DNA of 64,000 nucleotides from positions 19,669,501 to 19,733,500 of the forward strand of contig CM075770.1 of assembly GCA_037974665.1 (NCBI GenBank). The letters run 5' to 3'. The DNA is from Ehretia macrophylla (lineage: Eukaryota; Streptophyta; Magnoliopsida; Boraginales; Ehretiaceae). Below the pieces are notes generated by a model, which searched no databases, was not told where the DNA came from, and saw only the letters and a program-made list of their open reading frames with translations. A program made the translations under genes and the position numbers. This document shows positions 10,256 through 56,948 of the stretch, one piece after another; positions within the stretch are counted from its first letter, which is position 1; each line of letters begins with the position of its first letter.

Positions 10256-10286
10256 GACACGCAAAGCACCTGAAGAGATATTTTGT

Positions 10287-13872: not shown

Positions 13873-13888
13873 TTGGGGAGGGGAGAAT
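13873..13888 (+). other. Polypurine tract of Tat element 1
   Basis: A purine run, ggggaggggagaat, lies directly before the TG of the 3' LTR, as expected for the plus-strand primer. Confidence 0.8.
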
Positions 13889-25708: not shown

Positions 25709-26184
25709 TGACGATGGGGACCCCGAGTTGAGGTACCGTGCCTATTTCGAGCTGTGGCGGGCTAATCTGAGCCAAGCCCAACACATTCAGCTAATGCCCA
25801 ACTTGGATGCTGATTCAACCTCACCCCGACCCAGGAAAACCCCAACCTCGGCAAACAGCTGTTGCTGATGGGACATAAAGCCCTGATGGGACATAAAGCT
25901 GCACTGCATTAAATGCTGTCAGGTCCGAATCTAGTATAAATAGAGCTCCACCCCTTCATTTCTGAGGTAACTCGTCATTAAATGCTCTCAGCTACTTCTC
26001 CAGCTCGGACATACTAATCATTCGCACATCCGAGGGGAAAATACAGGTCATCACCCTACCTTTTCCTTTATTTTTCTTGTGCAGGTCAGGTAGCCGACCC
26101 AAAATCCAGGTCAAGAAGTCAACCCAGATTTCCTACTCAGCAGAAGTAGCTCCCGACTTTAACGTCGAGATTCCGACCTCGACA
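25709..26184 (+). repeat. 5' LTR of Tat element 2
   Basis: It runs from tgacgatggggaccccgag to cctcgaca and contains the TATA box tataaatag near 25936. The motif tttggcgccgtctgtggg follows at 26186. Confidence 0.93.
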
Positions 26185-26248
26185 GTTTGGCGCCGTCTGT
26201 GGGAAAGTTCTTTCTATCACCCTTCTTACCACTCATTGAGAAACCATC

Positions 26249-27700
26249 ATGGTACAAACGAGAAGCCACAGCGCACCAGTGGAGGATTCGCCCAACCCGG
26301 ATGGGGACCTCGAAACCACGCAGGTGCCTAGCCAAAACCTAACCCAAGCCGACGTTGGAAAGAGCCAACGTATACATTTAGCCACCCAAACCAACCCCAC
26401 GACAGATGGAGACCTCAACTCCAGCCTGTCACCGGAGATAAGGATGACGCTGAGGATGTTTGAGGAACTTAAGGAGCAGGTAGCCCGGCTAGCGGGGGAC
26501 CCCCCGGCTCTGCAAGCAACTACGCCACGGCCCGCGTGTCCACAGTTCCGCATCCCAGCCCTAAGACAAAAACGGACGCAAGAAGAAGAGGGTTTCCTAG
26601 AGCCGGTGGCGGGACCCGATGAGGTAAGAAGTAAAAGGGTGGCTCAAGCCGACCCCGAGCAGGCCAAGACTGCGGCTGCCATAGCAAAGGTCGTTAACCA
26701 GCTCGGCGTAAGCCCATTGTCAACAGAGGTACTGGCAACGCCACTACCCACTGGCAACCGGATGCCCAACTTGGCAGTCTACAATGGGGACGGCGACCTA
26801 GCCAGCCACTTGCTCAACTTTGACCACCACATGACCCTGCATGACATGTCCGACCTCATGAAGATGAAGACATTCCCGACCACCCTAGTTGGCAATGCCT
26901 TGGACTGGTTCCAAAAACTTCATCCCGGTTCTATTGCAAGTTTTCATCAGCTGGCTGAAGCTTTTCTATCCTGCTTCGCGGGAAGCCGACGCGCCACCCT
27001 CCACACTTCTACATTGCTGTTGGTGAAGCAGCATAGAGGGAAAAGTTTGAGGGCTTACACAACTAGATTCAATGAAGAGTCCCTTAGAATCCCCAACCTG
27101 GAGGACTCCATGGCGTTGATGGCTTACTAGAGTGGGCTCAGGTCGGGCCCCCTTACAACCTCTTTGGCCATCGACCCCGTGGATATTGTAGCCGAGCTGA
27201 TGGTACGAGCAGAAGGATACATACACTCGGAAGAAATCCATCAGGTGAAGAGGGATGATGACAAGGAGAAGGAAGCCAGTAAGAAGGGAGAGACCTCCCG
27301 AGCCCAACCTGGAGGTGAAGTCTAAAACGACTGAGGTAAGCAGCCTCATCAACCAAAGCAGAACCCCCGGTTCACTATGTTCACTCCCCTTAATACCACA
27401 AGGAACAGATCCTGATCGAGATCCAGCATCAGAACCACCAGCCTCCAGCTCTAAGGATGAAAGGCTGACCTGAAAAGCGCAATAGGACTAAGTATTGTCG
27501 CTATCATATGGACTACGGCCATACCACCGAGGAGTGCAAAGACTTGAAACAGGAGATCAAGGCACTGATAGCCCGAGGTCACCTCCGGAGGTACGTAGAT
27601 CAACAGCCGACCCGGAATCATGATCAGAGAGATAGAGAGAGGAATCATCCCAGGTGCCAGGTTGGGGGCGGACGTTTGGCTATGATTGAGACCATTGCAG
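26249..27700 (+). pseudogene. gag-like region of Tat element 2
   Basis: It starts MVQTRSHSAPVEDSPNPDGD and runs through a conserved helical block (LNFDHHMTLHDMSDLMKMK, LVGNALDWFQKLHPGS) to the zinc-knuckle-like YHMDYGHTTEECKDLKQEI near 27500. This is the best preserved gag N-terminus in the window. It is a broken fossil. Confidence 0.88.
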
Positions 27701-27829
27701 GAGGATTGGTGTAGGGTGGAGAGACCTCGGCAGGCAGGAAGGGTTATGTTCGGGCTGAGAGAGAGTATGGAACGGTGCGGGGTCCGACCCCAAAAATAGA
27801 GGAGCTCACCTTCTCCTCAGAAGACTTGG

Positions 27830-30800
27830 AGGGGGTGATATTGTCCCATGACAACCCACTGGTGATCAACGCTGAAATAGCCAACTTCACCGTGAAGAGG
27901 TTGATGGTGGACACCAGGAGCTCGGCATAAGTCTTATTCCTCAGCGCTTTTGAGCAGATAGGGTCGGACAAGGGCCGACTCAGGCCATTGAGGGGCACTT
28001 CGGCTGGTTTCACCGGGCAAGACTACTAAGCCGAAGGGGTCATCAACCTCCCGCTGAAGCTGAAAGATAGAGACAAGCGGGTTTCGATGCAAGCCAACTT
28101 CATTGTGATGGATTGCAATTCCACTTACAATACTCAATCATTTCAGGGCCGTCCCTTCAACTTACTACCAGGCCCTAAAATTCCCGACCCCGGCCGACAC
28201 GGCCATCATTCACAGAGCCCAGCTCTCAACTCGGGAATGTTATGAAAACTCCCTCCGACCCAAATGTCAAGTTGGCTAAGGACCAGATTTGTCCGAGAAA
28301 AATAGGGATGGTAAGAGATGCAGCCTGGCTGAAGACCTTCAAGAGGTGGAACTCTCCGATGAAACAAATAGAGCAAAAATCGGAAGTGAACTCTTTGCCG
28401 ACCTCAATAAAGGTATAAGCCAATTTCTTCTGAAAAATGAACACATATTTGCATGGTCTGCCTCTGACATGACAGGTATTGACCTGAGAGTGATTGAGCA
28501 TCACCTGAACGCCGACCTAAATCACTATCTGGTAAAGCAGAAGCACAGGCACTTCCATTATAATAAGCAACAAATCATAGCAGAAGAGGTGGACAAATTG
28601 GTAGACGCCGGCCACATAAAGGAAATCAGTACCTGACCTGGTTATCCAACGTGGTACTGGTGACCAAGTCCTCGGGTTGATGGAGATTGTGTATTGACTT
28701 TATCGATCTCAATAAAGCCTGCCCCAATGACTGCTTTCCCCTACCTCGGATTGATCAGATAGTAGATGCCACCTCCAGATTCGAACTACTCTCTTTCATG
28801 GATGCCTTCAAAGGCTATAACCAAATCAAGATGGTTCCCGAAGACAAAGAGAAGACTGCCTTCACCACCGATAAAGGTCTCTACTACTATGAGGTTATGC
28901 CTTTTGGCTTCAAGAATGCTGGAGCTACCCACACTCGGATAGTGACCAAGGTTTTCAAAAATCAGATTGGCCAAAATATGAAGATCTATGTAGATGACAT
29001 ATTGGTCAAGAGCAAAAGGGCGGAAGACCATGTAGCTGACCTGGCTGAAGCCTTCGCTGTAAATGAGCACTTTGGGATAAAGCTGAACCCGAAAATGTAT
29101 GCATTCGGCGTCAAGGCAGGAAAGTTTCTGGGCTTCATGGTCACAGCTCGTGGAATAGAAGCCAACCCGGAGAAGGTTCAAGTGATACTTGACCTGGCAC
29201 TGCCGACCTGCGTAAAGGACGTTCAGGTGCTCGCAGGCAAGATCGCGGCATTGAGCAGATTCATGTCCAGGTCGACTGACAACTGTGCACCTCTGTTCAA
29301 AATATTGAGGAATTCTAAGAACTTCAAATGGACTACAGAATGTCAGAACTCCTTCCAAGAGCTAAAAGGTATCTAGCTTCGCCACCCCTGCTATCCCGGC
29401 CTGAGATGGGGGAGGAGCTGGTACTATATTTATCATGCTCAGGGACAGCAGTGGTGGCGACACTAGTCCGCGAAGAAGGGAAGGAGCAGAAGCAGGTTTA
29501 TTATGTCAGCAAAACCTTTCAAGGGGCCGAGGTGAGGTACTCCTCCTTGAAAAAACTCGCCCTCGCGCTCATCACGACTGCAAAAAAGCTTAAGCTGTAC
29601 TTTGGTGCTCATCCAATTAAGGTCATGACGGATGCCCCACTCAAATCTATCATGCACAAGCCGGAGGCGTCGGGCAGGCTGCTGAAATGGGTAGTTGAGC
29701 TGAGTCAATTTGACATCACCTACCAGCCCAGAACAACCATCAAAGCCCAAGACATCGCGGACTTTGTGGTGGAATGCACTGGCCGAGCCGACCATGATCC
29801 GGAGGATGTATGGAAGATCCATGTGGATGGGGCCTCAGGGAAGTCTGGAAGCGGATTTGGGGTGGTCATCCTTGACCCGACCCGGTATGAGCACCAATAC
29901 TCCATCAAGTTCACCTTTCTGGCATCCAATAAAGAAGCTGAATACGAAGCGGTGATTGCGGGGCTGAAAATTGCAGCTGAGCTCGGGGCACAGACAGTCG
30001 ACCTGAGCACCGACTCTCAGTTGGTTTCTGGTCAGATATCGGGAAAATTCAAAGCCAAGGACAATGCTATGATAGCCTATCTCAACAGAGTCAAGGATTT
30101 GACCTCAGGGCTCAAAAGGTTCACGATACAGCAAATTTCGAGGGAGGAGAATATGAAGGCTGACGCCCTATCCAGGTTGGCCTTGGGAGAGAGCCGACCT
30201 GCCCTGGTCCATGTGGAAGAAGTATATGAACCAAGTATCCAGTTAGGGATGCAGGCCGTAGTCGAGCTCAATTTAAGCCCAGATTGGACCAAACCAATCG
30301 TGGACTACTTTGAAGGGGGTATGACCCCGGAGGATGAAAAAATAGCTCGAAAACTCATGAAACAGGCCTCAAAGTTTGTCATAATTGCCGGACAACTCTA
30401 CAAGAGAGTTTACACTTGGCCTCTCTTAAAGTGTGTTAGACCCGAGGAGGGAAACTATATACTCCAAGAGATCTATGAATGAGTATGTGAAAACCAGTTG
30501 GGTGGCAAGGCCCTAGCTCGGAAGGCATTAAGGCAAGGCTATTTCTGGCCAACCTTAGAACAAGATGCCAAAAAGTATGTAAAAAAGTGCGACACCTGCC
30601 AAAGGTTCGCCAATGTACAGAGGAAGCCATCGGTAGACCTCACGATGATGATGAGCCCGTGGCTATTCTATCAATGGGGTCTAGATATTATCGGCTCATT
30701 GCCAACTGGCGTTGGCCAAAAGAAGCACACATTCGTAGCAGTAGACTATTTTACCAAATGGCCTGAGGCCGAATGTGTTGCTAGAATAACAAAAAAGGCA

Positions 30801-31482
30801 GCTTGGAATTTTGTGTGGAGAAGCATCATTTGCAGATGTGGGGTGCCAAAGGTCATTATTACTAACCACGGCAAGCAATTCAACAGTGCATACTTTCGAG
30901 GCAAATGTGCTGAGATTGGGATCGACCTCAGATTCTCATCTATTGCTCACCCTCAAAGTAATGGCCAAGTTGAAAGGACTAACCAAATCATTTTGCAGGG
31001 TCTGAAAACCAAGCTGGAGGAAGCAGAAGGCCAATGGGCATCAATTCTTCCCGAGGTGTTGTGGGCTCAGCGGACCACCACCAGCTCAGCAATGGGAGAA
31101 TCGCCCTTCGAGCTGACCTTCGGTACTCAAGCGGTGCTGTCAGTGGAGATCGGGTCTCCGACTAGTAGAACCCTCTACCATGATCCAGAAATAAATGGAG
31201 CACTTATCCCTGAAGAGTTCGACCTCGCCGAAGAGCTCCAAGCTAAAGGTCAAATCAGGATGCTAGCCAGCAAAGCTGCTATGCATAGAGCCTTCGCTAA
31301 ACAGGTCAAGCTTAAACCTATTAAGGTTGGCGACCTCGTCCTCAGAAAGGCTATCTTTTTGTCGCGCTCGAGCAACAAGCTCTCCCCGACCTGGGAGGGA
31401 CCGTACGAAGTCGTGAAAGAAGTCCGACCTAGGACCTTCTACTACCATGACAGATACGGGAAACAATTGAAAAATGCATGAC
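27830..31482 (+). pseudogene. pol-like region of Tat element 2
   Basis: Long open blocks cover the protease linker and reverse transcriptase (28289-29376; LNKACPNDCFPLPRIDQIVD, YVDDILVKS), RNase H plus the second RNase H-like domain (29328-30482; VMTDAPLKSIMHKPEASG, then HVDGASGKSGSGFGVVILD) and the zinc-binding and catalytic parts of integrase (30498-31481; CDTCQRFANVQRKPS, AHPQSNGQVERTNQI, ending in a chromatin-reading-like GPYEVVKEV block). The order matches Tat pol. It is a fossil. Confidence 0.92.
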
Positions 31483-31509
31483 ACGTGGAGCACTTGAAGA
31501 GATATTTTG

Positions 31510-31655
31510 TGTAATGGCCCCCGAGTTGGAATCTCTTGTAACGGCCCCCGAGCCGAAATCTCTTGTAACGGCCATCGAGCCGAAAACTTTTGTACAGGCT
31601 CTGAGCCGAAGTCTTTGTTAAAGGCCCCGAGCCAAAATATTTCTTGTAATCGGCT
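31510..31655 (+). repeat. Minisatellite after integrase, Tat element 2
   Basis: About five degenerate copies of the 'cccccgagccgaaatctcttgtaa' type unit. The copy number is lower than in element 1. Confidence 0.8.
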
Positions 31656-32272
31656 CCCAAGCCCGAGTACTTCATGTACAATTTCAATACAAACGTATTT
31701 TGTAAACCAGTGCAATGCCCGACTTGGGCTCAAATGTCTCAGCTACTGAGCTACTCCCGACTCGGATTAACGCGGTGGCCACGCTTAATTACGAGCTAAT
31801 GATCCAAGTAAACCAGCTCGGACAAGGTTCCAACTCGGGTATAGTCAATAATAATTTGATTAGTTTTGCCAGTACATATTAAGTTCCAACTCGGTATAAT
31901 TCGGCTTCAGGTCGGGACGTTAGTTTGGGTCTAAACTCGAACTCAACATTTGTCAACATTAGATTGACCAATTTTAAATCGGACTGACTAGTCCAGGTCG
32001 GCGATAATTATATAGTTGCCCATTTAACCAGCTCGAATCAGGATGGTAATTCATTAATCACTTCCAGCTCAGTTCTTTATATTTAAATTAAGTTTGAAAG
32101 GTCCATTATATTGGTCCGACCCCACTTACTTAAGAAATTTGTGAAGAGAAAAGTACACATGTACGAACTCGAGTAAAATACAAAACAACTATTTCATTAA
32201 ATGGAAAATTTAAAATTACAATAGCCTGACCTGAGCAAGATTACAAAGAGCCCGACCAAGGCAAATCAACTA

Positions 32273-33376
32273 AAGCCCGACCCGGGCGACTACAAAATTT
32301 ACTTAGGAGCGGCGGTGGAGGTGGTGGCGTCGGCTTCATCCCCGACCTGATCCATGCCTTTCTGAACAAATTCGATCACTTCCTTGGCTTGGGACGTCAG
32401 GTCGGCCGGAAGCTCAGGAATCTCCCAGAACTCCTGCAGTGGAGCCTCCAAGATTTCAATGTAATCATTCTTGGTGGCAGGGAAAAAGGTCTTCGCTCTC
32501 TCCCGAGCTGCGACTTGGCCCCGGAAGTAGTACTCCAGCTAGGCGTACCGGGTTATCGCCTCACCTTCCGTGGCCAACCAGTCCACGGCCTCTTGATTGG
32601 ACTTGAAGGCGTCCACCGCCTTCTCTCCTTGTGGGCCGACCCGATCTACCAGATCCTTAAGCTTCGCCTCGGCCTCACGTTTATCCTTCTTGAAGCGCTC
32701 GACATCCTTGGCCGCAGCCTCGTGTCGGAACTTCTCCGCCTCAAGCTCCCTCTTCAGCCGATCGATCTCCATCTCGTCCGCTTTGCGCCTCTGGACGGCA
32801 TCCTCCCTCAAGGCCTCTAGCTCGAAATCAACTAAAGCCCGACCCGGGCGACTACAAAATTTACTTAGGAGCGGCGGTGGAGGTAGTGGCGTCGGCTTCA
32901 TCCCCGACCTGATCCATACCTTTCTGAACAAATTCGATCACCTCCTTGGCTTGGGACGTCAGGTCGGCCGGAAGCTCAGGAATCTCCCAGAACTCCTGCA
33001 GTGGAGCCTCCAAGATTTCAATGTAATCATTCTTGGTGGCAGGGAAAAAGGTCTTCGCTCTCTCCCGAGCTGCGACTTGGCCCCGGAAGTAGTACTCCAG
33101 CTAGGCGTACCGGGTTATCGCCTCACCTTCCGTGGCCAACCAGTCCACGGCCTCTTGATTGGACTTGAAGGCGTCCACCGCCTTCTCTCCCTGTGGGCCG
33201 ACCCGATCTACCAGATCCTTAAGCTTCGCCTCGGCCTCACGTTTATCCTTCTTGAAGCGCTCGACATCCTTGGCCGCAGCCTCGTGTCGGAACTTCTCCA
33301 CCTCAAGCTCCCTCTTCAGCCGATCGATCTCCGTCTCGTCCGCTTTGCGCCTCTGGACGGCATCCTCCCTCAAGGC
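32273..33376. repeat. 552-bp tandem duplication inside Tat element 2
   Basis: The segment 32273-32824 is repeated directly as 32825-33376, both starting aaatcaactaaagcccgacc. About six single-base differences were seen by eye (about 1%), so the duplication is much younger than the element's LTR divergence suggests for the insertion. The unit length is a multiple of three. Elements 1 and 3 have one copy only. It affects the coiled-coil block of the antisense module. Confidence 0.9.
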
Positions 33377-35010
33377 CTCTAGCTCGACTTGAGAGTCGAT
33401 GGATTGCTGCTCGAGCTCGATGCAGTGAGCTTGGGCTCGGGCGAGTAAGCTAGGTGCCGAAAGGATGTGGGACTCGGCCTGCACAAAAGACGACAAAACA
33501 ATCAACCGAGCCAAAAGACTTAACCATATTAACACGGTCAAATATGCCTTACCGTGGCTATGGCCGTCCTCAGGTCAAGCGAAAGCTGCTCCGCCGGGAC
33601 AGATGCCAGCTTGGGATCGCGAGCGACCTTGGCTGTCTCCACGAAGTCTTTGTTGGGAGGGCTCACCTCCGTGGCCTTGCCTTTTCCGGAGTACTCGAGT
33701 CGAGACCATTTCTTATTATTGGGGCGGGATACTGAACGCTCAGGGATCGCCACACCCGAGCTTGATTTTTTGGTCAAAGAAAAGGCCCACAACCCCTTGG
33801 AAGAGACCTCGGGTCACTGCCTTTGCTCTTGAGGGACGGTGGAACCCAAGCCAGACCGAGCCGAGACTTCACCACTGGCCTCGGTCCTCCTCTTCATCTG
33901 GGCATACGCGAGCTTCCTCGTATCCGCCATCTCTGTAAAAAACAAAGGAAAAAGAGGTGAGAAATAGTCAAATACAAACTGAAGGGAACAACGGTAGACA
34001 AGGAAACGGGGAGGTCGGGCATTGATCCTGCGAACTGACCCTCTTCTGATCCGGAATCTGCATTCTCTTCGAGCTCGGGAAGTAGATGGTGGTGGTCCTT
34101 CCTCAAGTCGGGTTCTCTCCCTAACAACTTGGATCTCCAGATTCTGTCCCACCTGAGGACACTGTCAATATCTATCAGCATACCCGGCTCGGGTCTCAAT
34201 ACCCCAACTTCGGCGAGCTCGGCTTCTGAAAGCTTAGGGTTATCGTTCACATTCTTCTTTAGTAAGGGATTCCAATCCACCTTGCACCCCGGGTTCACAG
34301 CCGGCTCGACCTAGTAGTAGTCGTTGTGCCAGCCCTTATTGGAGGAGTGCCACTTGGTGAATATGGCATTGCTGGCCCGAGCTGTGAAATGAAACCACTC
34401 CGGCTGCTTCAGGTTGGGCTTGCACACAAAGAACTGCCTGAACCGACGCAGGGTCGGCTCTATTTTCCTCTCAAGGCAAAATACATAAAATGCCACCATC
34501 ACGGCCTAACCATTTGGTGACATCTGACCCGGGCTAAGCTCAAAGTAATTCAAAATGCCGGCGATAAAGTCGGGAAGTGGAAGCCGGATGACATCGAATG
34601 CGAGGTCATAGATGGTGAAGTGATCGGATGGAGGATAGTAGGCGGGCTCATTCCGACCTGAAACCTTCAGCTTATAGTGTTGGTCCACCGACCAATCCCT
34701 TAGCTTGGAGTTGGCCATCTGCACCGTGGAATGGCACTCCCGTTTGCAACAGGCGAACAACTGCTCGATCCTCTTCCCCCGAGCCGATGAACCACTGGCT
34801 GTAGCTGAGCTCCGAGGTCGGACCGCCCTAACCGGGACTGCTTCAACCGGTTCCGACGTAGAGACTCTAGCTAAGTACTCCTGAGGTATCTCAACTCCCT
34901 CCAGCTGGTTCAATGGCTCATCATCTTCCCTATTATCCAAGTCTCCCAAGTCGGCCAAAGGATCCGCCTCGGCTTCCTCTTGTACCCGCCTGACCTCGAT
35001 TACTTGGTTG
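32300..35010 (-). pseudogene. Antisense gene of Tat element 2 (PF04195-like)
   Basis: Minus-strand blocks at 34506-34958, 34311-34502, 33894-34298, 33538-33792, 33101-33541 and 32539-32931 match those in element 1. The PF04195-like part includes LPLPDFIAGILNYFELSPGQ and VAFYVFCLERKIEPTLRRFR, then NAIFTKWHSSNKGWHNDYY. The coiled-coil block is present twice because of the tandem duplication. It is a fossil. Confidence 0.72.
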
Positions 35011-35030
35011 CCGGGCTGATCCTTGAGATA

Positions 35031-35382
35031 GAGAAAACCCCGACCTCAACAAACAGCTGTTCTGATGAGACATAAAGCCCTAATGGGACATAAAACTGTA
35101 CTGCATTAAATGCTGTCAGGTCCGAATCTAGTATAAATAGAGATTCACCCCTTCATTTCTGAGATAACTCGTCATTAAATGCTCTTAGCTACTTCTCCAG
35201 CTCGGACATACTAATCATTCGCACACCTGAGAAAAAAATCTGGGTCATCACCCCGCCTTTTCCTTCCTTTTCCTTGTGCAGGTCAAATAGCCGACCCGAA
35301 AATCTAAGTCAAGAAGCCGACTCAGATTTCTTGCTTGGCAGAAGTAGCTCCCGACCTTAACGTTGAGATTCCGACCTCAACG
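35031..35382 (+). repeat. 3' LTR remnant of Tat element 2
   Basis: It matches the right three quarters of the family LTR, with the TATA box region near 35132 and the conserved 'ggacatactaatcattcgca' block near 35205. It ends at the atgat duplication. Confidence 0.88.
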
Positions 35383-43371: not shown

Positions 43372-44321
43372 TTTTACCACTGTACAGCCACCTCCAACAA
43401 TACGGAATTCAAAGTTGCTGATCAAAACTAAACTAGCTAGTTCTTCTTATTGTCTTTTTTGTCAAGTTTTCATGGCTTCTCTTCCATCATTTTTCCTTCT
43501 GTTGTTTCTTTTTCGTTTTTCTTCACTTGTCTCGTCTAAAATACTGTATGCTAGATTTTCATGGTTACAATTTACAAATTGCGTGCAATAAACAACTTTT
43601 CCAACTGTCCATTACTATATATAAATGCCTTCAGAAGTGCATCAATTCTATCATACGAGAATATAATTAACTAGTTTACTGAATGGTGCGCACTCGAGCT
43701 TCAAATGACCTCTTGAGTTCTAAATTAGACGTCTGATTTATCTCCTTTGTTATTAATGCTTAATTAATATCTTAACATTTCCTTAAAACAGAATACTTCA
43801 TCTATCCATATTCCCAGAAGTTCTTGAAGGCTTATCTTGTAGACAGGTCTGAGGCTCGTTTTCCTTGGAATTAAATAGTTCCGAAGCAGGCTAACGAATT
43901 TTTAGTTTTTATCTAAAACTAGATCAAACCAATAAGTTAAATTACCGATTGGCTCAAGTGTCCAAGGGTTTGGTCTTTTTTTTCTTGGTCAAGCAGTTTA
44001 ATGGGTGATTGCCTCTGCGATTTTTTGGGACACAACAGGGAAGTGTTAAAACTCGGCAGCTCACATACTTCAATCCTATGTGATTAATCCATCAAACTGT
44101 ACCTTTATGTGGAAAAATTCCTTTATTCGACCATGCAGCTATGAGATAAAAGTGAGTCTCACCGATTATGTGGGGTTCACACGCGTATTAGGGCTGCATG
44201 GTTGAATAGAAGCTTGTCCCATGAGTTCTTCGTGCAACAACCAGGTCTGAGTCTCAGTATTGTCTTCACGCAAGTCTACAATGTAAAAAGAATCACTACC
44301 TGATTTCAAATGGAATCATAC
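43372..44321. other. 3' flank and spacer
   Basis: 3' UTR of DUF3339 gene 1, then spacer without a recognised gene, up to the pol-less LTR element. Confidence 0.4.
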
Positions 44322-44609
44322 TGTTATGAACTCGATAGTCTGCTCTACTAATGATAAGGGCCCAACTCAAACTATGGAGCCCAATATAGTTGTTGATCAA
44401 CCAAACCTAACTATTACATGTCTTGTTAGTTAGAGTTTATTAGACATTTAGCATGTGAGGTGTGAATCATTATATATCTTAGTAGTTGTATCAGAGGAAG
44501 CAAGCAAGACACTATCTTTATTTCTATTTTGTTCTTCTTTCTTCAATTCTCTGTAATTTTCATTTCTTTTATGTCTTTCTATTATTCCTCAAAATTTTAG
44601 TTCGTTACA
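44322..44609 (+). repeat. 5' LTR of the pol-less element
   Basis: TG..CA ends and a catac flank on the left. It aligns along its whole length with 56647-56943. Confidence 0.92.
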
Positions 44610-44629
44610 TTAGTGCTCTCGTTGACTCC

Positions 44630-44800
44630 ATGGCCGAGGGTACCAGACTCAACGCCATGGATGACGCGGTAACGAAGCTTCTGCAAACTACAACACAAAA
44701 TACTCGAAAGCCGGATGACTTTCAACAGACACTTGGCGCCCTCACTTCTAAGCTCACAACGATTGATGGCAAACTCGATAGTGAGCTCTCCAATCACCAT
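44630..44800 (+). pseudogene. gag-like start of the pol-less element
   Basis: A frame opens 20 bases after the LTR with MAEGTRLNAMDDAVTKLLQT, in the style of Ty3/gypsy gag starts (MAEGTR...), with a coiled-coil-like QQTLGALTSKLTTIDGKLDS. It passes into host-derived sequence near 44800. Confidence 0.65.
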
Positions 44801-45019
44801 TATCACACGATTGTTTCGTCGTCGGTTGATAGCTGTAATGGGTTGGTGTGCCTTAGTGATGATGAATTTACTTATAGCAGACATTGTACTGTCTTATGGA
44901 ACCCCTGTATCAAAAGATGGGTTTGCCTTTCGAGTCCCATACTTACTTTTGTGACGCATGGCCGATCCAAGCATGCTTTTGGGTTCGGGTTTGATCCTGT
45001 TAAGAATGATTACAAGGTG
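44800..45019 (+). pseudogene. Captured F-box-associated-domain fragment
   Basis: The frame reads VDSCNGLVCLSDDEFTYSRH, CTVLWNPCIKRWVCLSSP, then AFGFGFDPVKNDYKVV. These are the hallmark motifs of the F-box-associated interaction domain of plant F-box/kelch proteins (SCNGLVC, LWNPSIRKW, FGFDxxxNDYKVV). The F-box itself and the C-terminal part are absent. It lies inside the LTR element and is a captured gene fragment. Confidence 0.88.
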
Positions 45020-45024
45020 GTTAC

Positions 45025-45549
45025 TGACGAGGGAGATCCCGAGCTGAGGTAAAATGTCCACGCCGAGCTGAGTTGGGCTAATCCGAGCCAAGCCGAGCAT
45101 ATTCAGCTATTACCCAACTAGGATGCTGATCCAACCTCACCCCGACCCCGGAAAATCCCGACCTCAGTGCCACCTACTCTGATGGGACATAAAGCCTTGA
45201 TGGGACATAAAGCTGTACCGCATTAAATGCTGTCGTCTCATAATTTAGTATAAATAGGGCTCCACCCCTTTATTTCGAAGGTAACTGATCATCTATGCTT
45301 TCAGCTACTTTGCTAGCTCGGACATACTAATCATTCGCACGCCCGAGGGGAAAATCCGGGTCATTACCCCGCATTTTCCTTCCTTTTCCTTGTGCAAGTT
45401 CAGTGGCTGACCTGAAAATTCAACTCGGAGGCCAACCTGAAAATTCACATCGGAGGCCAACCTGAAAGTTCAGGTCGGAGGCCAACCTGAAAGTTCAGCT
45501 TGGCAAAGCGTAGCCGTCCAACCTCAACTGCGAGGATTTCCGACCTCAT
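45025..45549 (+). repeat. 5' LTR of Tat element 3
   Basis: It starts tgacgagggagatcccgag and has the TATA box region near 45250. The right border is approximate. Four copies of a 'ggaggccaacctgaaaattca' type unit lie at about 45410-45505. Confidence 0.88.
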
Positions 45550-45572
45550 TCACCACTCATTGAGAAACCATT

Positions 45573-47150
45573 ATGGTACAAACGAGAAGCCACAACGCAT
45601 CGGTAGAGGATTCGCCCAACCCGGATGGGGACCTCAAAACCATGCAGGTGCCTAGCCAAAACCCAATCCCAACTGAAGTTGGGACGAGCCAACGTATACA
45701 CTTAGCCACTCAAACCAACCCCATGGCAGATGGAGACCTAAACTCCAGCCTGTCACCGGAGATAAGGATGATGCTGAGGATGTTTGAGAAACTTAAGGAG
45801 TAGGTAGCCCGGCTAGCTGAGGGCCCCTTGGCTCCGCAAGAAGCTACGCCGCGACCCTCGCGTCCACAGTTCCGCATCCCGGACCCAAGGCCAAAACGGG
45901 CACAGGACGAAGAGGGCTTCCTAGAGCCGATGGTGAGACCCGACGAGATGAGAGGTAAAAGGGCAGCACAAACCGATCCAGAGCAGGCTAAGACCGCGGC
46001 CGCAATAGCCAAGGTCATCAACCAGCTCGGCGTAAGCCCACTCTCACCCGAGGTACTAGCCACGCCACTACCTACCGGCAACCGGATGCCTAACCTAGCC
46101 GTCTACAATGGAGATGGAAACCCAGCCAGCCACCTGCTCAACTTTGATCACCACATGACTCTACATGACATGTCCGACCTCATGAAGATAAAGACATTCC
46201 TGACTACCCTGGTTGGCAATGCCTTGGATTGGTTCCAAAAACTTCATCCCGGTTCAATTGCAAGTTTTCATCAGCTGGCTGAGAATTTCTTGTCCTGCTT
46301 CGCGGGGAGCCGGCGCGCCACCCGCCATACTTCTACGTTGCTGCTGGTGAAGCAACATAGAGGGAAAAGTTTGAGGTTTTACACGGCCAGATTCAATGAA
46401 GAGTCCCTCCGAATCCCCAACCTGGAGGATTCTATGGCGTTGATGGCTTACCAGAGCGGGCTCAGGTCGGGCCCCTTTACATCCTCATTGGCTATCGACC
46501 CCGTGGATACTGTATCCAAGCTGATGGTACGAGCAGAAGGGTACATACACTCAGAAGAAATCTATTAGGCAAAGAGGGACTATGACAAGGAGAATGAAAC
46601 CAGCAGGAAGGGAGATACCTCCCGAGCCCAACCTGGGGGTAAAGTCCAAAACGACCAAGGTAAACAGCCCCAACAGCCAAAGCAGAACCCCCGGTTCACT
46701 ATGTTCACTCCCCTTAACACCACAAGGGAGCAGATCTTGATGGAGATCCAGCACCAGAACCACCTGCCTCCAGCTCCCAGGATGAAAGGCCGACCCGAGA
46801 AGCGCAATAGAACCAAGTATTGCCGTTACCATATGGACTATGGCCATACCACTGAAGGGTGCAAAGACTTGAAACAAGAGATCGAGACACTGATAGCCCG
46901 AGGTTACCTCCGAAGGTACATAGATCCACAGCCGACCCGGAGTCACAATCAGAGAGATAGAGAGAGGAGTCCACCCAGGTACCAGGCTGGGGGCGGACGT
47001 TTGGCTGTGATTGAGACTATTGCAGGAGGTTTGGCGTTGGGTGGGGAGACCTCGGCAGGTAGGAAGGGTTATGTTTGGGCTAGGAGGGAGTATGGACCAG
47101 TGCGGGGTCTGGCCCCGGGGATGGAAGAGCTTACCTTTTCCTCAAAAGAC
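45573..47150 (+). pseudogene. gag-like region of Tat element 3
   Basis: It begins MVQTRSHNASVEDSPNPDGD. The block 45828-46568 has the conserved LLNFDHHMTLHDMSDLMKIK and SGLRSGPFTSSLAIDPVDT segments, and 46701 onward has the zinc-knuckle-like CRYHMDYGHTTEGCKDLKQE. It is a fossil. Confidence 0.88.
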
Positions 47151-50100
47151 TTGGAGAGGGTGATATTGCCCCATGACGACCCGCTGGTGATCAGTGCTAA
47201 AATAGTCAACTTCACCGTGAAGAGGCTGATGGTGGATACCAGGAGCTCGGCAAAAGTCTTATTCCTTAGCACTTTTGACCAAATGGGGTTGGACATGAGC
47301 CGACTCAGGCCATTGATGGACACTTTAGCTGGTTTCACCTAGCGAGCCCACCGAGCCAAATGGGTCATTAACCTTCCGCTGAAGCTGAAAGACGGAGATA
47401 AGCGGGTTTCGATGTAAGCCAACTTCATTGTGATGGATTGCAACTCCACTTACAATAGGATCTTAGGTCGGGTGGCACTCAACCATTTCAGGGCCGTCCC
47501 TTCAACTTACCACCAGGCCCTAAAATTCCCGACCCCGACCGGCACAGCTACCATCCGCGGAGCCCAGCTCTCAGCCCGGGAGTGTTATGACAACTCCCTC
47601 CGACCCAAATATCAGGTTGGCTGGGGACCAGATTTTCCCAAGGAGAAGAGGGATGCTAAGAGAGGCAGCCCAGCTGAAGACCTTCAGGAGGTGGAACTCT
47701 CCGATGAAACAAAGAAAGCAAAAATCGGAAGTGAACTTTCTGTCGACCTCAAGAAAGGTATAAGTCAATTTCTCCTGAAAAATGAACACATATTTGCATG
47801 GTCTGCCTTTGATATGACAGGTATTGACCCGGGAGTGATTGAGCATCACTTGAATACCGACCCGAATCACTATCCGGTGAAGCAGAAACGCAGGCACATC
47901 CATTATGATAAGCAACAAATCATAGCAGAAGAGGTGGACAAATTGGTAGACGTCGGCCAGATAAAGGAAATCCAGTACCCAACGTGGTTATCCAACGTAG
48001 TGCTGGTAACCAAGTCCTCAGGAAGATGGAGATTGTGTATTGATTTTACCGACCTCAATAAAGCCTGCCCTAAGGACTACTTTTCCCTACCTCGGATTGA
48101 TCAGATAGTAGATGCCACCTCCGGGTTCAAGCTACTCTCTTTCATGGATACCTTCAAAGGCTATAACCAAATCAAGATGGCTCCCAGAGACAAAGAGAAG
48201 ACTGCTTTCACCACCGATAAAGGTCTCTACTACTATGAGGTCATGCCTTTTGGCCTCAAGAATGCTGGAGCTATCTACACTCGGATGGTGAACAAGGTTT
48301 TCAAAAATCAGATTGGCCGAAATATGGATATCTATGTAAATGACATGTTGGTCAAGAGCAGAAGGGCGGAAGACCATGAAGCCGACCTGGATGAAGCCTT
48401 CGCTGTAATGGAGCACTTTGGGATAAAGCTGAACCCAGAAAAGTGCGCATTCGGCGTCAAGGCGGGAAAGTTTTTAAACTTCATGGTCACAGCCCGCGGA
48501 ATAGAAGCCAACCCGGAGAAGGTTCAGGCGATACTGGACCTGGCACCGCCGACCTACGTGAAGGACGTCCAGGTGCTCATGGGCAAGGTCGCGGCGCTGA
48601 GCAGATTCATGTCCAGGTCGGCCGACAAGTGTGCACCTCTGTTCAAAATATTGAGGAATCCTAAGAACTTCGAATGGACTACAGAATGCCAGAATGACTT
48701 CCAAGAGCTGAAAAGGTATCTAGCTTAGCCACCCCTGCTATCTCGACCTGAGGTGGGGAAGGAGCTGGTATTATACCTAGCATGCTCGGGGACAGCAGTG
48801 GCAGCGACACTAGTCCGTGAAGAAGGGAATGCGCAAAAGCCGGTCTATTATGTCAGCAAAACATTGCAGGGGGCTGAGGTGAGGTACTCATCCTTGGATA
48901 AACTAGCCCTCGCGCTCGTCACAGCGGCAAGGAAGCTAAAGCCATACTTTGATGCTCATCCAATCAAGGTCATGACGGATGCTCCGCTCAAGTCCATCAT
49001 GCACAAGCCGGAGGCATCGGGCAGGCTGCTGAAATGGGCAGTTGAGCTGAGTCAATTTGACATCACCTACCAGCCCAGAATAGCCATCAAAGCCCAAGCC
49101 ATCGCGGACTTTGTGGTTGAGTGCAGTGGCCGAACCGAGCATGACCCAGAGGATGTGTGGAAGGTCCATATAGATGGGGTCTTAGGGAAATCTGGAAACG
49201 GAGCCGGAGTAGTCATCCTCGACCCGACCCGGCATGAGCACCAATACTCCCTCAAGTTCACCTTTCCGGCGTCCAACAATGAAGCTAAGTACGAAGCAGT
49301 GGTCGTAGGACTGAAAATTGTAGCTCAGCTTGGGGCACAGACAGTCGACCTGAGCACCGACTCTCAATTGGTTTCTAGTCAGATATCGGGAGAGTTCGAA
49401 GCCAAGGACAGTACTATGCTGGCCTACCTCAACAGAGTCAAGGATTTGACCTCAGGGCTCAGAAGGTTCACGATACAGCAGATTCCGAGGGAGGAGAATA
49501 TGAAGACTGATGCCCTGTCCAGGTTGGCCTTGGGCGAGAGCCAACCTGCCCTGGTCCATGTGGAAGAAGTATCCGAACCGAGTATTCAGTTAGAGGTGCA
49601 AGCCGTAGCCGAGCTCAATCTAAGCCCAGATTGGACCAAACCAATCGTGGACTACTTGGAGGGGGTATGACCCAAGAGGATGAAAAAGCAGCTCAAAAAC
49701 TCATGAAATAGGTCTCAAGGTTTGTCATAATCGCCGGACAACTCTATAAGAGAGCCTACACTTGGCCTCTCTTGAAATGTGTTGGACCCGAGGAGGGAAA
49801 CTATGTACTCCGGGAGATCCATGAAGGGGTATGTGGAAACCACTTGGGAGGCAAAGCTCTGGCTCGAAAGACATTAACGCAAGGCTATTTCTGGCCAACC
49901 TTAGAACAAGATGCCAAATAATACGTAAAAAAGTGCGACACCTGCCAAAGGTTCGTCAATGTACAGAGAAAACCTGCAGTAGACCTCATGGTGATTATAA
50001 GCCCATGACTATTCTATCAGTGGGGTCTAGATATTATCGGCCCATTGCCGACCATTGTCGGCCAAAAGAAGCACGCCTTCGTAGATGTAGACTACTTCAC

Positions 50101-50827
50101 CAAATGGCCCAAGGCTGAAGGTGTCGCTAGAATAATAGAAAAGACAGCTTGGGATTTCGTATGGAAAAACATCATTTGCCGATTTAGGGTGCCAAAGGCC
50201 ATCATCACTGACCACGACTAGCAATTCAACAGTACATACTTTCGTGGTAAATGTGCTAAGATTGGGATCGACATCAGATTCTCATCTATTGCCCACCCCC
50301 AAAGTAATGGCCAAGTTGAAAGGACTAACCAAATCATTTTGCAGGGCCTGAAAACCAAGCTGGAGGAAACGGAGGGTCAGTGGGCATCGATTCTTCCCGA
50401 GGTGTTGTGGGCTCAGCGGACCACCACCAACTCAACAACGGGAGAATTGCCCTTCGAGCTAACCTTCGGTACACAAGCGGTACTGCCAGTGGAGATCGGG
50501 TCTCCGACCAGTAGAACGCTCCACCATGATCCAGAAATAAACGGAGCACGGATCCGTGAAGAGCTCGACCTCGCTGAAGAGCTCCGAGCTAAAGCTCAAA
50601 TCAGAATGCTAGCCAGCAAAGCTGCCATGCAAAGAGCCTTTGCCAAACAGGTCAAGCCTAAGCCTATTAAGGTTGGCGACCTCATACTCAGAAAGGCCGT
50701 CTTTTTGCCGCGCTCGGGTAACAAGCTCTCCCTAACCTAGGAGGGACCATATAAAGTCGTGAAAGAAGTCCGACCAGGGACCTTCTACCTCCGCGACAAA
50801 AAGGGAAAACTATTGAAGAATGCATGA
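47150..50827 (+). pseudogene. pol-like region of Tat element 3
   Basis: A protease-like block (near 47215), reverse transcriptase (47430-48728, the longest RT frame in the window; TDLNKACPKDYFSLPRIDQI), RNase H plus the second RNase H-like domain (48753-49670) and integrase (about 49831-50827; WGLDIIG-type block and HPQSNGQVERTNQIILQGL). It is a fossil with several breaks. Confidence 0.92.
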
Positions 50828-50854
50828 CACTCAGAACACCTAAAGTGGTATTTT

Positions 50855-51015
50855 GTCTAAAGGCCCTGAGCCGAAATCTTTTGTTACGACCCCGAGCTGA
50901 AATCTTTTGCAACGTCTTCGAGCTTAAATCTCTTGTAACGGCCCCGAGCCGAAATCGTTTGTAACAGCCCTTGAGCTGAAATCTTTTGTTAAGGCCCCGA
51001 GCCAAAACATTACTT
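50855..51015 (+). repeat. Minisatellite after integrase, Tat element 3
   Basis: About five to six degenerate copies of the 'ggccccgagccgaaatctttt' type unit. Confidence 0.8.
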
Positions 51016-51679
51016 GTAATCGGCTCCCGAGCCCAAGTACTTCATGTACAAATTCAATACAATGCATTTTCTAAACCAATGCAGCGCCCGACCCAGGCCC
51101 AAGCAACCAAACCAGCGCAATGCCCGACCCGGGCCCAAGTGCCTCAGCTACAAAGCTACTCCTGACTCGGATTAACGCGGTGGCCACGCTTAATTACGAA
51201 CTAATGATTCAAGTAAACCAACTCGGATCAGGTTCCAGCTCGGGTATAGTCAATAATAATTTGATTAGATTTGCCAATTCGGATTAAGGTCCAACTCGGT
51301 CCAATTCGGCTTCAGGTCGGGACGTTAGTTTGGGTATAAACTCAAACTCAGCATTTGTCAACATTAGTTTGACCAATTTTAAATCGGACTGACGAGTCCA
51401 GATCGGCGACAATTATATAGTTGCCCAGTTAACCAGCTCGGATTAGGTTGATAATTCATTAATCGCGTCTAGCTCGGTTCCCTATATTTTAATTAAGTTT
51501 GAAAGGCCCATTAAATTGGTCCGACCCCACTTACTTAAGAAATTTGCGAAGAGAAAAGTACATTCGTACAAACTCTAATAAAATGCCAAACAGTCATTTC
51601 ATTAAACTTGAAAATGCAAAGTTAAAAGGAGCCCAACTTGGGCGAAATTACAAAAGCCCGACCTGGGCGATTACAAAGT

Positions 51680-54010
51680 TTACTTAGGAGCGACGTTGGA
51701 GATGGTGGCGTCGGCTTCATCCCCGACCTGGTCCATGCCCTTCTGGACAAATTCCATCACCTCCTTGGCTTGGGATGTCAAGCAGGCCGGTAGCTCAGGA
51801 ATCTCCCAGAACTCTTGGGGCAGAGCCTCCAAGATCTCGATGTAATCGTTCTTAGTGGCAGGGAAAAAGGTCTTCGCTCTCTCCCGAGCTGCGACTTGGC
51901 CGCAGAAGTAGTATTCCAACTTGGCGTACCGGGCTATCGCCCCTCCCTCTGTGGCTAGCCAGTGCACAGCCTCTTGGCTGGACTTAAAGGCTTCTACTTC
52001 CTTCTCCCCACGCGGGCTGACCCGATCCAAAAGGTCCTTAAGCTTCGCCTCGACCTCGCACTTATCCTTCTTGAAGCGCTCGACATCCATGGCCGTGGCC
52101 TCGCGCCGGGACTTCTCCGCCTCGAGCTCCTTCTTCAGGCGGACGATCTCCGTTGCATCCGCTTTTTGCCTCTGGGAAGCATCCTCCCTCAGGGCCTCTA
52201 GCTCAGCTCGGGAGTCGATGAATCATTACTCGAGCTCGACGCAATGAGCCTGGGCTTGGGAGAGCAAGCTAGGTGTCGTAAGGATGTGGGACTCGGCCTG
52301 CACAAAAGATGATAGAATGGTCAGCTGAGCCAAAAAACTTATCCATATCAACGCAGTAAAATATGTCTTATCGTGACTATGGCCGTCCTCAGGTCGAGCG
52401 AAAGCTGCTCCGCCGGGACCGATACCAGCTTGGGTTCGCGGGCAACCTTGGCTGTCTCCACGAAATCCTTGTTGGGAGGGCTCACCTCCGTGGCCTTGCC
52501 TTTCCCGAAGTACTCGGGCCGGGACCATTTTCTATTTTCGGGGCGGGATGCTGAGCGCTCAGGGATCGCCACGCCCGAGCTTGATCTTTTGGTCTGGGGA
52601 GACGCCGACGTCCCCTTAGAAAAGACCTCAGGCCTCTGCCTCTGCTCCTCAAGGACGGAGGAGCCCAAGCCGGACCGAGCAGAGACCTCGCTGCTAGCCT
52701 CGTTCTTTCTCTTCATCTGGGCATACGCGAGCTTCCTCATATCCGCCATATCTGCAAAAAACAAAGAAGAGATGTGAGAAACAACCCGAGGCAAACTGAA
52801 GGGAACGACGGTAGACAAGGAAACGAGGAGGTCGAGCGCTGATCTTGCGAACTGACCCTCTTCTGAGCTGGACCCCGCGTCCACTTCGAGCTCGATAAGC
52901 AGGTTGGGATGATCCTTCGAGAGGTCGGATTCCCCGCCAAATAGCTTGGACTCCCAGATCCGCTCCTATTTGAGCACACTGTCAATGTTTATAAACATCC
53001 CCGACGCGGGACTCAGCACCGCGACTTCCTCGAGTTCCTCATCTGAAAGCTTGGGATCATCATTGACATTCTTCTTCAAGCTTGGAGTCTAGTCCGACCT
53101 ACATCCCGGGTTTACAGCCGGCTCCACCCAATAATAGTCATTGTGCCAACCCTTGTTGGAGGAATGCCATTTTGTGAATATGGAATTGCCAACCCGAGCT
53201 GCGAAGTGGAACCACCCTAGCTATTTCGGGTTGGGCTTGCACACAAAGAAATGTCTAAATCAGCGCAGGGTCGGCTCTACTTTCTTCTCGAGGCAGAACA
53301 CATAGAACGCCACCACCACGGCCCAACCATTCGGCGACATCTGACCTGGGCTAAGCTCGAAATAGTTCAAGATGTTGGTAACGAAGCTGGGAAGATTGAG
53401 CTGAATAACATCGAATGCAAGGTCATAGATGGTGAAATGGTCGGGAGGAGGATAGCAAGCTGATTCACGCCGACCTGGAACCTTCAACTTGTGATATCGG
53501 TCCACTGACCAGTTCCTCAGCCTAGCGTTAGCCATTTACACCGTGGAATGGCACTCACGCTTGCAACAGGCGAACAGCTGCTCGATCTTCTTCCCCCGAG
53601 CTGAAGAAGTATTGGTTGTATCTGAGTTGCGAGGTCGGACTGCCCTAACTGGGACTTCTTCAATCGGCTCCGCCGTAGAGACTCCAGCTAAGTACTCTTG
53701 GGCCATCTCGACCCCCTCCAACTGGTTCAGCGGCTCCTCATCTTCTCTATCTTCCAGGTCTCCCATGTTGGCCAAAGGATCCGCCTCGGCCTCCTCTTGC
53801 ACCTACCTGACCTCAATCACTTGGCAATCGTCATCACTCTCCCTGAGCTCAGATTGCCGAGCTGATCCATGTGAGTCACCTTGACCTCTATCTGAGGTAG
53901 ATTCTAAGCTCGACGGACTCTCGTCCCCGCCGTAGGATCTCACCTCTATTATCTGGGAATCTTCCGACTCCGACATCCCCATCCTGCCTACAAATTGAAA
54001 ATATATGTAC
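51680..54010 (-). pseudogene. Antisense gene of Tat element 3 (PF04195-like)
   Basis: Minus-strand blocks at 53803-54012, 53536-53802, 53260-53535, 52348-52884 and 51680-52090 match those of elements 1 and 2. They include MANARLRNWSVDRYHKLKVP, NYFELSPGQMSPNGWAVVVA and the C-terminal coiled-coil block. It is a fossil. The same antisense layout in three copies shows it is a fixed part of the family. Confidence 0.73.
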
Positions 54011-54218
54011 AAGAATAACTAAACGGAGTCGGGACGTACCTACGGCTCTAGCTGTGGAAGGTGACCAGAACTAAATTGGCTCCGAGCCAATTGACCCCGA
54101 GCTGAATACCCCGAGAAGCTTTTTGCCGAGTTGAAAGTGTCCGACCACTCTTGTATCCAACCTGAAAGCTCTGAAATTCGTAAGCAAAAGTGTGAAATGA
54201 ACCTCAGATAACAAGGCC

Positions 54219-54227
54219 CTACTTATA
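54219..54227 (-). promoter_or_regulatory. Antisense TATA box in Tat element 3
   Basis: On the minus strand it reads TATAAGTAG, at the position matching TATAAATAG in element 1. Confidence 0.45.
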
Positions 54228-54407
54228 GGCAACTCCTGCAACCACCTCGAGAATCCCAAACGTCGCATCTTGTCATAACCGCCAGGTGACGTGTCAGCCA
54301 TCTGAAGGGTATGCGTCACTGATGTGGCCATTCTTACTCCGCCGGGGTCGGGCACCTCCAACTCGGGAACAACTCCCAATTCCAGATCTCACCCTCTCGA
54401 TCTCAAT

Positions 54408-54425
54408 TTGGGGGGAGGGGGGGAT
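54408..54425 (+). other. Polypurine tract of Tat element 3
   Basis: A run of G and A (ggggggaggggggga) ends right before the 3' LTR. Confidence 0.8.
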
Positions 54426-54935
54426 TGACGAGGGGGATCCCGAGGTGATGTAAAATGTCCACGCCGAGCTGAGTCAGGCTAATCCGAGCCAAGCTGAGCA
54501 TATTTAGCTGTTGCCCAACCAGGATACTGATCCAACCTCACCCCGACCCCGGAAAACCCAGACCTCGGTGCCAGCTGCTCTGATGGGACATACAGCTACA
54601 CCGCATTAAATGCTGTCGGCTCATAATTTAGTATAAATAGGGCTCCACCCCTTCATTTCGAAGGTAACTGATCATCCATGCTTTCAGCTACTTTGCCAGC
54701 TCGGACATACTAATCATTCGCACGCCTAAGAGGAAAATCCGGGTCATCACCCCGCCTTTTCCTTCCATTTCCTTGTGTAGGGTTCAGTGGCCGACCTGAA
54801 AATTCAACTCGGAGGCCAACCTGAAAATTCACATTGGAGGCCAACCTGAAAGTTCAGCTCAGAGGCCAACCTGAAAGTTCAGCTTGGCAAAGCGTAGCCA
54901 TCCAACCTCAACTGCGAGGATTTTCGACCTCGACA
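54426..54935 (+). repeat. 3' LTR of Tat element 3
   Basis: It starts tgacgagggggatcccgag and ends cctcgaca, followed by gttac. The four tandem 'ggccaacctgaaa.ttca' units lie at about 54787-54890, as in the 5' LTR. Confidence 0.92.
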
Positions 54936-54940
54936 GTTAC

Positions 54941-56345
54941 AATTGTTGAATCATGTGATTTTCAAGATGCTGATTTTCTTAATGCTATTATGAAGGTTTA
55001 TTGCACCCATACCGCACCGAGCTATTCTCTTCCTTGGCAGAAAAAAAGACAATACACTAGCACTGGAAGTGCTTTCATGATTGGGGAAGGAAGGCTTTTG
55101 ACAAATGCTCATTGCATCGAAGATGCTACTCAGGTTAAGGTGAAAAAAATAGGAGATAATATGAAATATCTGGCTAAGGTTCTAGCTACAGGGGAAAAGT
55201 GTGACATTGTTTTGCTTTCAGTTGAAGACAAGAAATTTTGGGAAGGAGCTAAGCCCCTGAGCTTGGGACCCTTGCCTCATTTGCTAGATTCTGTAATTGT
55301 TGTACGATATCCACTGACCACTGGGAAGAGATATCATATCAGTGACTAAGGGAGTGGTAGCAAGAATAGATGTGACATCATATGTACACAGATCATCCAA
55401 TTTACTAGCCATTCAAATTGATGCAGCAATTAAACCTGATAATATTGGTGGTCCTGTGTTTAACAAGCAGGGAGAACGCATAGGCATGACATTTCAGGGT
55501 TACAAGTGTTCTTGTGTTAAAAATGTTAGTTGTGTGATTCCAATAATGGTTGTCTTTCATTTTCGGGAGAACTATAAGAAGAATTGGAAATACACTGGGT
55601 TCCTTTGTCTTGGCGTTGTGTTACAAAAGTTGGTGAGTCTTGCATTGAGGGCCTAGTTAAAAGTGCCATATAATGAGGGTGTACTTGTAAGAAGAGTCAA
55701 ACCTACTTCTGATGTTACAAATGTTTTGAAGGAGGGGGATGTGATTTTGAGCTTTGATGGTCTTCAAGTAGGGTAGGACGAGACTGTGACATTCCGCTCA
55801 AATGAACGCATTGCATTTCGCTATTTGATTAGTCAAAAATTTGTAGGTGATGCTGTAGAACTTGGCATTCTTAGAGCAGGGGCAGTCATGAAAGTTCGTG
55901 TGGTGTTGAATCCGCCTGTAAATCTTGTTCCGTATCATGCTGAAGGAGATAAGCCTTCCTATTTGATAGTTGCTGGCTTAGTGTTCACACCTTTATCAAA
56001 ACCTCTCATAGAGGAAGAATGTGAAGACGTCTGGGGTCGAGGCTATTGACAAAGGCACGATACTCTATGGCAAGGTTCAAAGGGGAACAGATTGTAATCC
56101 TATTGCAGGTATTAGCAGATGAAGTAAATAGTGGATGCGAAGACATGAGCTTTAAGCAGGTCTTGGAGCTGAATGGAACTCCGATAAAGAATATTCATCA
56201 CATGGCTCATCCTGTTGCTTCTTGTGTGGACAAATATTTGGTCTTTGAATTTGAAGGTGATCTCCTCGCTGTTTTGGAAAAGGAAGCGGCAAAGGCTGCC
56301 TCGCCTGGCATCCTCATAGGAGGAAATAATGCTGACACAAATAGA
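54941..56345 (+). pseudogene. DEG2: Captured intron-free DEG2 protease segment
   Basis: Separate frames match plant DEG2, the plastid stromal-side Deg/HtrA serine protease. They include FLNAIMKVYCTHTAPSYSLP, TGSAFMIGEGRLLTNAHCIE, ATQVKVKKIGDNMKYLAKVL and CDIVLLSVEDKKFWEGAKPL (54941-55349). Then come VVARIDVTSYVHRSSNLLAI (from 55342), the PDZ-like RSNERIAFRYLISQKFVGDA and PSYLIVAGLVFTPLSKPLIE (55786-56049), and ARYSMARFKGEQIVILLQVL (56046 on). It lacks the plastid transit peptide. DEG2 genes have many introns and this copy has none, so it derives from an mRNA. The protease core is degraded and broken in several places; it is not active. Confidence 0.9.
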
Positions 56346-56646
56346 AGCAATGCCACAAGCAATGATATGAGTTCTATGACTAAAAGTCAACGACTGAAAA
56401 TATATGAAATCAGCTGTGAAAGATCGAATTAGCTCAATAATTATTTCCTATAAGATTCTAAGGTGGATGTTACTCTTGACCCCTATGAGACCTATGAAGA
56501 TGCACTTTTCGGCTATAAGGTCACATTCAAAGCATTCGTTGGAGTTCGAGATAACATAACAATAGCTCAAGCTAAACTTTTCGGGATAATCTACATGTTT
56601 TCATTTTGAACCTTGAGGACAAGGTTCTTTCAAAAGAGGGAGGTAA
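56346..56646 (+). other. Unidentified tail of the pol-less element and polypurine tract
   Basis: The sequence after the DEG2 similarity reads, in one frame near 56460-56570, VDVTLDPYETYEDALFGYKV and TFKAFVGVRDNITIAQAK, which I do not recognise; it may be a third captured fragment. Near 56600 comes NLEDKVLSKEGG, like the end of many Ty3/gypsy polyproteins, overlapping the purine tract aaaagagggaggtaa before the 3' LTR. Confidence 0.55.
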
Positions 56647-56943
56647 TGTTATGAACTCGACGATAGTGGTGGGCTGCTCTACTAATGATAATGACCCAAC
56701 CCAAACTATGGAGCCCAATACAGTTGTTGATCAACCAAACCCAACTATTATATGTCTTGTTAGATAGAGTTTGTTAGACATTTAGCATGTGAGGTGTGAA
56801 GTATTATATATCTTGGTGGTTGTATCAGAGGAAGCAAGCAAGACACTATCTTTATTTCTATTTTGTTTTTCTTTCTTCAATTCTCTGTAACTTTCTTTTC
56901 TTTTATGTCTTTCTATTCTTTCTTAAAATCTTAGTTCGTTACA
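56647..56943 (+). repeat. 3' LTR of the pol-less element
   Basis: It starts tgttatgaactcgacgatag and ends ttcgttaca, followed by catac. Confidence 0.92.
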
Positions 56944-56948
56944 CATAC

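Follow-up and report, generated by a model that had tools for sequence, protein, structure and literature searches.

Gene capture by long terminal repeat (LTR) retrotransposons is well documented, and three host genes joined in one reading-frame phase are uncommon; the precedent is Bs1 of maize, in which the captured segments are fused to gag. Plants also contain the non-autonomous, pol-less elements known as TRIM, LARD and TR-GAG. Here we describe an LTR retrotransposon of Ehretia macrophylla, located at positions 44322-56943 of a stretch of 64,000 nucleotides (contig CM075770.1, assembly GCA_037974665.1; hereafter the window), which is likewise non-autonomous and pol-less and differs from those groups in carrying host coding sequence and from TRIMs in its greater length. 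It is probably a Bs1-like element in which template switching joined pieces of at least three host mRNAs, derived from a gene with an F-box-associated (FBA) domain, from DEG2 and from a gene of the Nudix hydrolase 3/dipeptidyl peptidase III (DPP III) type, while another element provided the enzymes in trans. New here are the third host fragment, at 56454-56582, and the reading-frame phase that the pieces share.

The closest described systems place this locus in context. A review describes Bs1 as an LTR element whose hybrid reading frame combines segments from three host genes (PMC13317346), and the E. macrophylla element likewise holds pieces of three host genes. This likeness is drawn from the description of Bs1: its host genes encode a membrane ATPase, a xylan endohydrolase and a glucanase, and in E. 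macrophylla, unlike in Bs1, the frame is broken. Two surveys give hundreds to thousands of genes within LTR elements per plant genome (PMC3726574, PMC5664825), the second counting 1398 to 3898 per species. For pepper and other plants, PMC5664825 describes copies of spliced mRNAs in LTR elements mostly devoid of gag and pol; about 72% of the retroduplicated pepper NLRs sit in elements without gag or pol coding potential, and two or three genes in single elements are mentioned in the methods as a problem to filter out. That study concerns NLR genes, whereas in the element described here three genes are represented and share the phase of a gag-like start. For maize, the survey results in PMC2774510 list 425 LTR elements with gene fragments, representing at least 189 captures. 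These are gene fragments in intact LTR elements, as here, but none of the 425 is given there as combining fragments from two or more standard nuclear genes. The original prediction had called the capture of two unrelated host genes rare; this should be qualified in view of the numbers of genes within LTR elements, although the maize set showed no such multi-gene cargo. A search of the open literature for retrotransposons with DEG2 and F-box sequences, or with a captured Do-like 2, found no report, although the search for other cases was limited.

An LTR retrotransposon split by a later gypsy insertion

The span 44322-56943 is one LTR retrotransposon that was split by the later insertion of a gypsy element. 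Its framework, all on the plus strand, consists of the following features.

44317-44321, plus strand: left target-site duplication CATAC of the outer element, read from the sequence
44322-44609, plus strand: 5' LTR of the outer element, 288 bp, TG...CA, from the LTR alignment
45020-45024, plus strand: left duplication GTTAC of the nested element, read from the sequence
45025-54935, plus strand: nested Ty3/gypsy element of 9911 bp, separate from the captured cargo, with LTRs at about 45025-45550 and 54426-54935
54936-54940, plus strand: right duplication GTTAC of the nested element, read from the sequence
56632-56643, plus strand: polypurine tract AAAAGAGGGAGG, a purine run just 5' of the 3' LTR
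56647-56943, plus strand: 3' LTR of the outer element, 297 bp, from the LTR alignment
56944-56948, plus strand: right target-site duplication CATAC of the outer element, read from the sequence

The outer element thus has paired direct LTRs with TG...CA ends, a target-site duplication and a polypurine tract. The LTR pair differs by 22 substitutions in 288 columns (17 transitions and 5 transversions) and one 9-bp gap, corresponding to a Kimura two-parameter (K2P) divergence of 0.082 with a rough error of 0.017. Without the nested insert and one copy of its duplication, the element measures 2706 bp (12622 - 9911 - 5). Alignment and sequence therefore bear out the matching 288- and 297-bp LTRs, the perfect CATAC duplication, the polypurine tract and the size of 2.7 kb stated in the original prediction, and the TG...CA ends together with the 5-bp duplication support its claim of insertion by the usual integrase route. 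A Pfam scan of seven open pieces of the outer element detected no pol domain and hence no reverse transcriptase. This supports the description as pol-less, so that reverse transcription and integration must presumably have been assisted in trans.

In the nested element, Pfam identified the domains Retrotrans_gag (E 7.4e-12) and RVT_1, a reverse transcriptase (E 6.9e-27). Because GTTAC is present on both of its sides, it represents a clean later insertion. Its LTRs, whose ends were placed by eye with a slack of a few bases, differ in about 41 of 510 columns (K2P 0.086, rough error 0.013). As this value and that of the outer pair agree within their rough errors, divergence does not date the nesting, and it is the nesting itself that sets the order of the insertions. 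At the rate of 1.3e-8 used for LTRs in the dating passage of PMC5664825, a rate that may not apply here, both LTR pairs would be about 3 million years old.

This architecture also bears on the notion that the span is gene debris caught between two LTRs of different elements. The cargo parts do lie 9.9 kb apart in the raw sequence, as debris might; however, the LTRs match and are flanked by CATAC, a purine tract precedes the 3' LTR, and GTTAC surrounds the nested element, which makes this explanation extremely improbable. A separate proposal, that the two cargo parts are unrelated to each other, was rejected as contradicted by the duplications.

Within the window, the outer LTR and the cargo had no further nucleotide match. 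Among viral contigs, two 25-base patterns from the outer LTR found no match, and the first DEG2 piece, the gag/FBA piece and the gag-like start found no relatives, each a weak test for a plant element; the right-hand cargo (54941-56646) had no match among plasmids, which says little for such an element. ARAGORN predicted no tRNA genes in the window. A bacterial promoter scan of the outer LTR returned two sites against 1.5 expected, a result that is uninformative for a plant.

Several further observations concern the gypsy family. Three related copies of one family occur in the window (4481-14288, 25709-35381 and the nested element at 45025-54935), and the second contains a 563-bp tandem duplication at 32263-33387 with 98.9% identity. 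In the nested element, the pol region is followed by five tandem copies of a 26-27-bp unit (50861-51007) and by long antisense reading frames on the minus strand (51680-52965), which resemble the additional antisense frames of plant LTR retrotransposons treated in a section of PMC7264820.

Host-gene pieces in a common phase

Between the 5' LTR and the polypurine tract, the outer element contains a gag-like start, the three host pieces and a spacer.

44630-44800, plus strand: gag-like start, an open frame with ATG beginning MAEGTR...; right limit approximate, gag label presumed
44828-45024, plus strand: left part of the FBA fragment, by TIGR01640 (NCBIfam)
54941-54953, plus strand: end of the FBA fragment, a few codons 3' of the nested element, by the TIGR01640 match across the join
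54957-56315, plus strand: DEG2 (Protease Do-like 2) segment, an intron-free, dead copy corresponding to residues 40-490 of the 4fln chain
56316-56453, plus strand: spacer, 138 nt, in which stops at 56430 and 56451 interrupt the common frame
56454-56582, plus strand: DPP III fragment of the Nudix hydrolase 3 type, by PDB 5zum and 6eom and by a profile

The frame that begins with the ATG at 44630 is open up to the nested insertion and then beyond it to 55346. Pfam identified no gag domain in the gag-like start, the sole match being SlyX far below the cut-off. The gag-like label of the original prediction was not confirmed by any search; it is kept here for the likeness to the MAEGTR-type starts of plant gypsy gag proteins.

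The left FBA part alone matches TIGR01640 with E 1.2e-9 and 37.9 bits, which is exactly the cut-off. When the right flank of the nested element is joined to it, the match rises to 43.3 bits (E 2.7e-11) and crosses the insertion site by about five residues; hence the gypsy insertion site lies within the F-box piece, a few codons ahead of its joint with DEG2. The piece had no match in Pfam, but TIGR01640 confirms the F-box-associated sequence that had been predicted in the place of pol.

The DEG2 segment, likewise predicted there, contains trypsin-like and PDZ_3 domains. For all four pieces searched, the best match was PDB 4fln, the crystal structure chain of Arabidopsis DEG2 (Protease Do-like 2, chloroplastic), with E values of 3.3e-54, 1.5e-38, 2.5e-36 and 2.9e-34. 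A chimeric Do-like 2/Do-like 9 chain (5ilb) followed closely for the first piece, whereas plain Protease Do-like 9 scored much lower than 4fln for every piece. The copy and 4fln are identical at 281 of 411 aligned residues; chain residues 269-312 lie outside this residue-by-residue alignment, and the left part of that stretch shows a weak PDZ_2 match below the cut-off (E 0.002, Pfam). Residues 40-490, or 451 codons, would require 1353 nt, and 1359 nt are present. The surplus of 6 nt fits a 7-nt near-tandem gain at 55311-55324 combined with a 1-nt loss near 56040, and these indels coincide with the two frame changes read from the sequence; DEG2 likeness in the first frame stops near 55316. The stretch is therefore colinear, and no DEG2 intron is present, in agreement with the predicted intron-free state. 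Because the 4fln chain comprises 539 residues, both ends of DEG2 appear to be missing. In the passages on the plant Deg family in PMC3473262, domain arrangements and lengths are described and DEG2 intron positions are not given. The copy has two stops (55654, 55774) and two frameshifts, and its catalytic motif reads DNIGGP in place of GNSGGP in 4fln, replacing the catalytic serine with isoleucine. Judged from these lesions, the predicted product cannot be a working protease.

The third fragment was missed by the original prediction, which had named two unrelated host genes; FBA and DEG2 stand and the list is extended by one. The frame 56454-56606 matches PDB 5zum (dipeptidyl-peptidase III) and 6eom (MutT/NUDIX family protein), each with E 1.5e-7, the latter presumably a bacterial dipeptidyl peptidase III. 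A profile of 111 prokaryote loci recovered the piece at E 3e-11 and, with values of up to E 1 admitted, nothing else in a six-frame translation of the window. The loci came from at least 119 stretches found with a degenerate motif pattern, of which up to 8 were dropped by a length and open-frame filter, and they were chosen by the central motif and not individually identified. Since the profile was selected on the motif that it then finds, the PDB match is the independent and cleaner evidence. Peptide patterns of the piece matched 92 stretches in prokaryote genomes, with none confirmed by tblastn, and neither Pfam nor NCBIfam gave a match. According to PMC9820243, the plant protein that combines such a DPP III with a Nudix domain bears the name Nudix hydrolase 3; thus, by comparison with PDB and prokaryote sequences, a Nudix hydrolase 3 gene is the likely source. 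The spacer ahead of this piece has no PDB or NCBIfam match in the common frame up to 56429, and the pieces containing it have no Pfam match; it lies outside the DPP III profile match in all six frames and has no second copy in the window.

If the nested insert is left out, the gag-like ATG, the FBA piece, the N- and C-terminal parts of DEG2 and the DPP III piece are all in phase 0, and only the middle of DEG2, between the two compensating indels, is in phase 1. Owing to the stops in the spacer, no open frame links the DPP III piece to the rest of the cargo in the present copy. A probability of 1e-7 for the open frame had been considered as support and was dropped, because the pieces derive from coding sequence and the test would not be fair. 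One conceivable explanation of the common phase is that an ancestor expressed a single gag/F-box/DEG2/DPP III fusion and spread as a family with this cargo, the frame being kept by selection on the element or on the host, in the latter case by way of small RNAs that target DEG2 and Nudix hydrolase 3. We regard this as decidedly unlikely.

Origin of the composite cargo

The cargo consists of truncated pieces of unrelated genes in sense orientation, of which one appears to be spliced, as would be expected from co-packaging of mRNAs and template switching. In such a course of events, mRNAs of the F-box-associated gene, of DEG2 and of the Nudix hydrolase 3/DPP III type would have been packaged together in virus-like particles, where reverse transcriptase may have switched between them and the RNA of the element. 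The hybrid cDNA would then have been integrated by enzymes supplied in trans. The present copy has since decayed and was split by the gypsy element. All three host pieces lie in sense between the start of the element and the purine tract, and this matches transduced gene sequences in general, which usually have the same orientation as gag and pol (PMC7264820).

The cargo could instead have been assembled stepwise at the DNA level, through insertion, double-strand-break repair or ectopic recombination, with DEG2 taken from an already processed retrocopy. Evidence of an RNA stage comes from DEG2 only, and the 138-nt spacer without a match in the searches made would also suit such an origin. Against it, the pieces are all sense-oriented and in one phase with the gag-like start, and DEG2 lacks both of its ends and has no poly(A) run on its 3' side. 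No homopolymer run of more than four A occurs at 56250-56640, which makes a LINE-type retrocopy of DEG2 inside the LTR element less likely. Overall, capture at the DNA level appears unlikely, though not negligibly so.

Read-through transduction, in which each piece would stem from a gene beside an insertion site and be acquired by transcription past the LTR, followed by splicing and recombination, has a precedent in classification, as the review places Bs1 and tomato Rider under this heading in its section on transduction (PMC13317346). Yet three unrelated families within one LTR pair would need several rounds, each of them internalised, and we consider this route very unlikely.

Several points weigh against template switching between co-packaged mRNAs. 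The argument from DEG2 presupposes that the parental gene, as a member of an intron-rich group, has introns in this particular stretch. F-box genes are often intronless, and the short FBA and DPP III pieces show nothing on an origin from RNA or DNA. By chance alone, about one in 27 sets of three joints would be in phase, and the common frame meets two stops in the spacer ahead of the DPP III piece. Moreover, the case is built on a single copy. Finally, in the part of the review that classifies capture routes, abnormal template switching is listed separately from the transduction under which Bs1 is filed (PMC13317346).

Neighbouring sequences and significance

Elsewhere in the window, an intact, intron-free frame of 436 residues encodes eukaryotic release factor 1 (eRF1; 18076-19383, plus strand), as identified by PDB 8ip8 (E 2.5e-273) and by eRF1 domains 1-3 in Pfam. 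A fragment of an RNase H-like domain at 15251-15784 (plus strand; Pfam RVT_3, E 5.2e-12) is perhaps LINE debris.

For E. macrophylla, any present effect of the captured cargo would be exerted through putative small RNAs or transcripts, as no working protease is encoded. If the proposed joining of host mRNAs by template switching is correct, the element would add to maize Bs1 another clear example of an LTR element that has joined pieces of three unrelated host genes in one phase. Comparison of the joints with the parental genes could then put template switching to the test at the level of single bases, and such elements would show that retrotransposons can shuffle exons into possible new genes.

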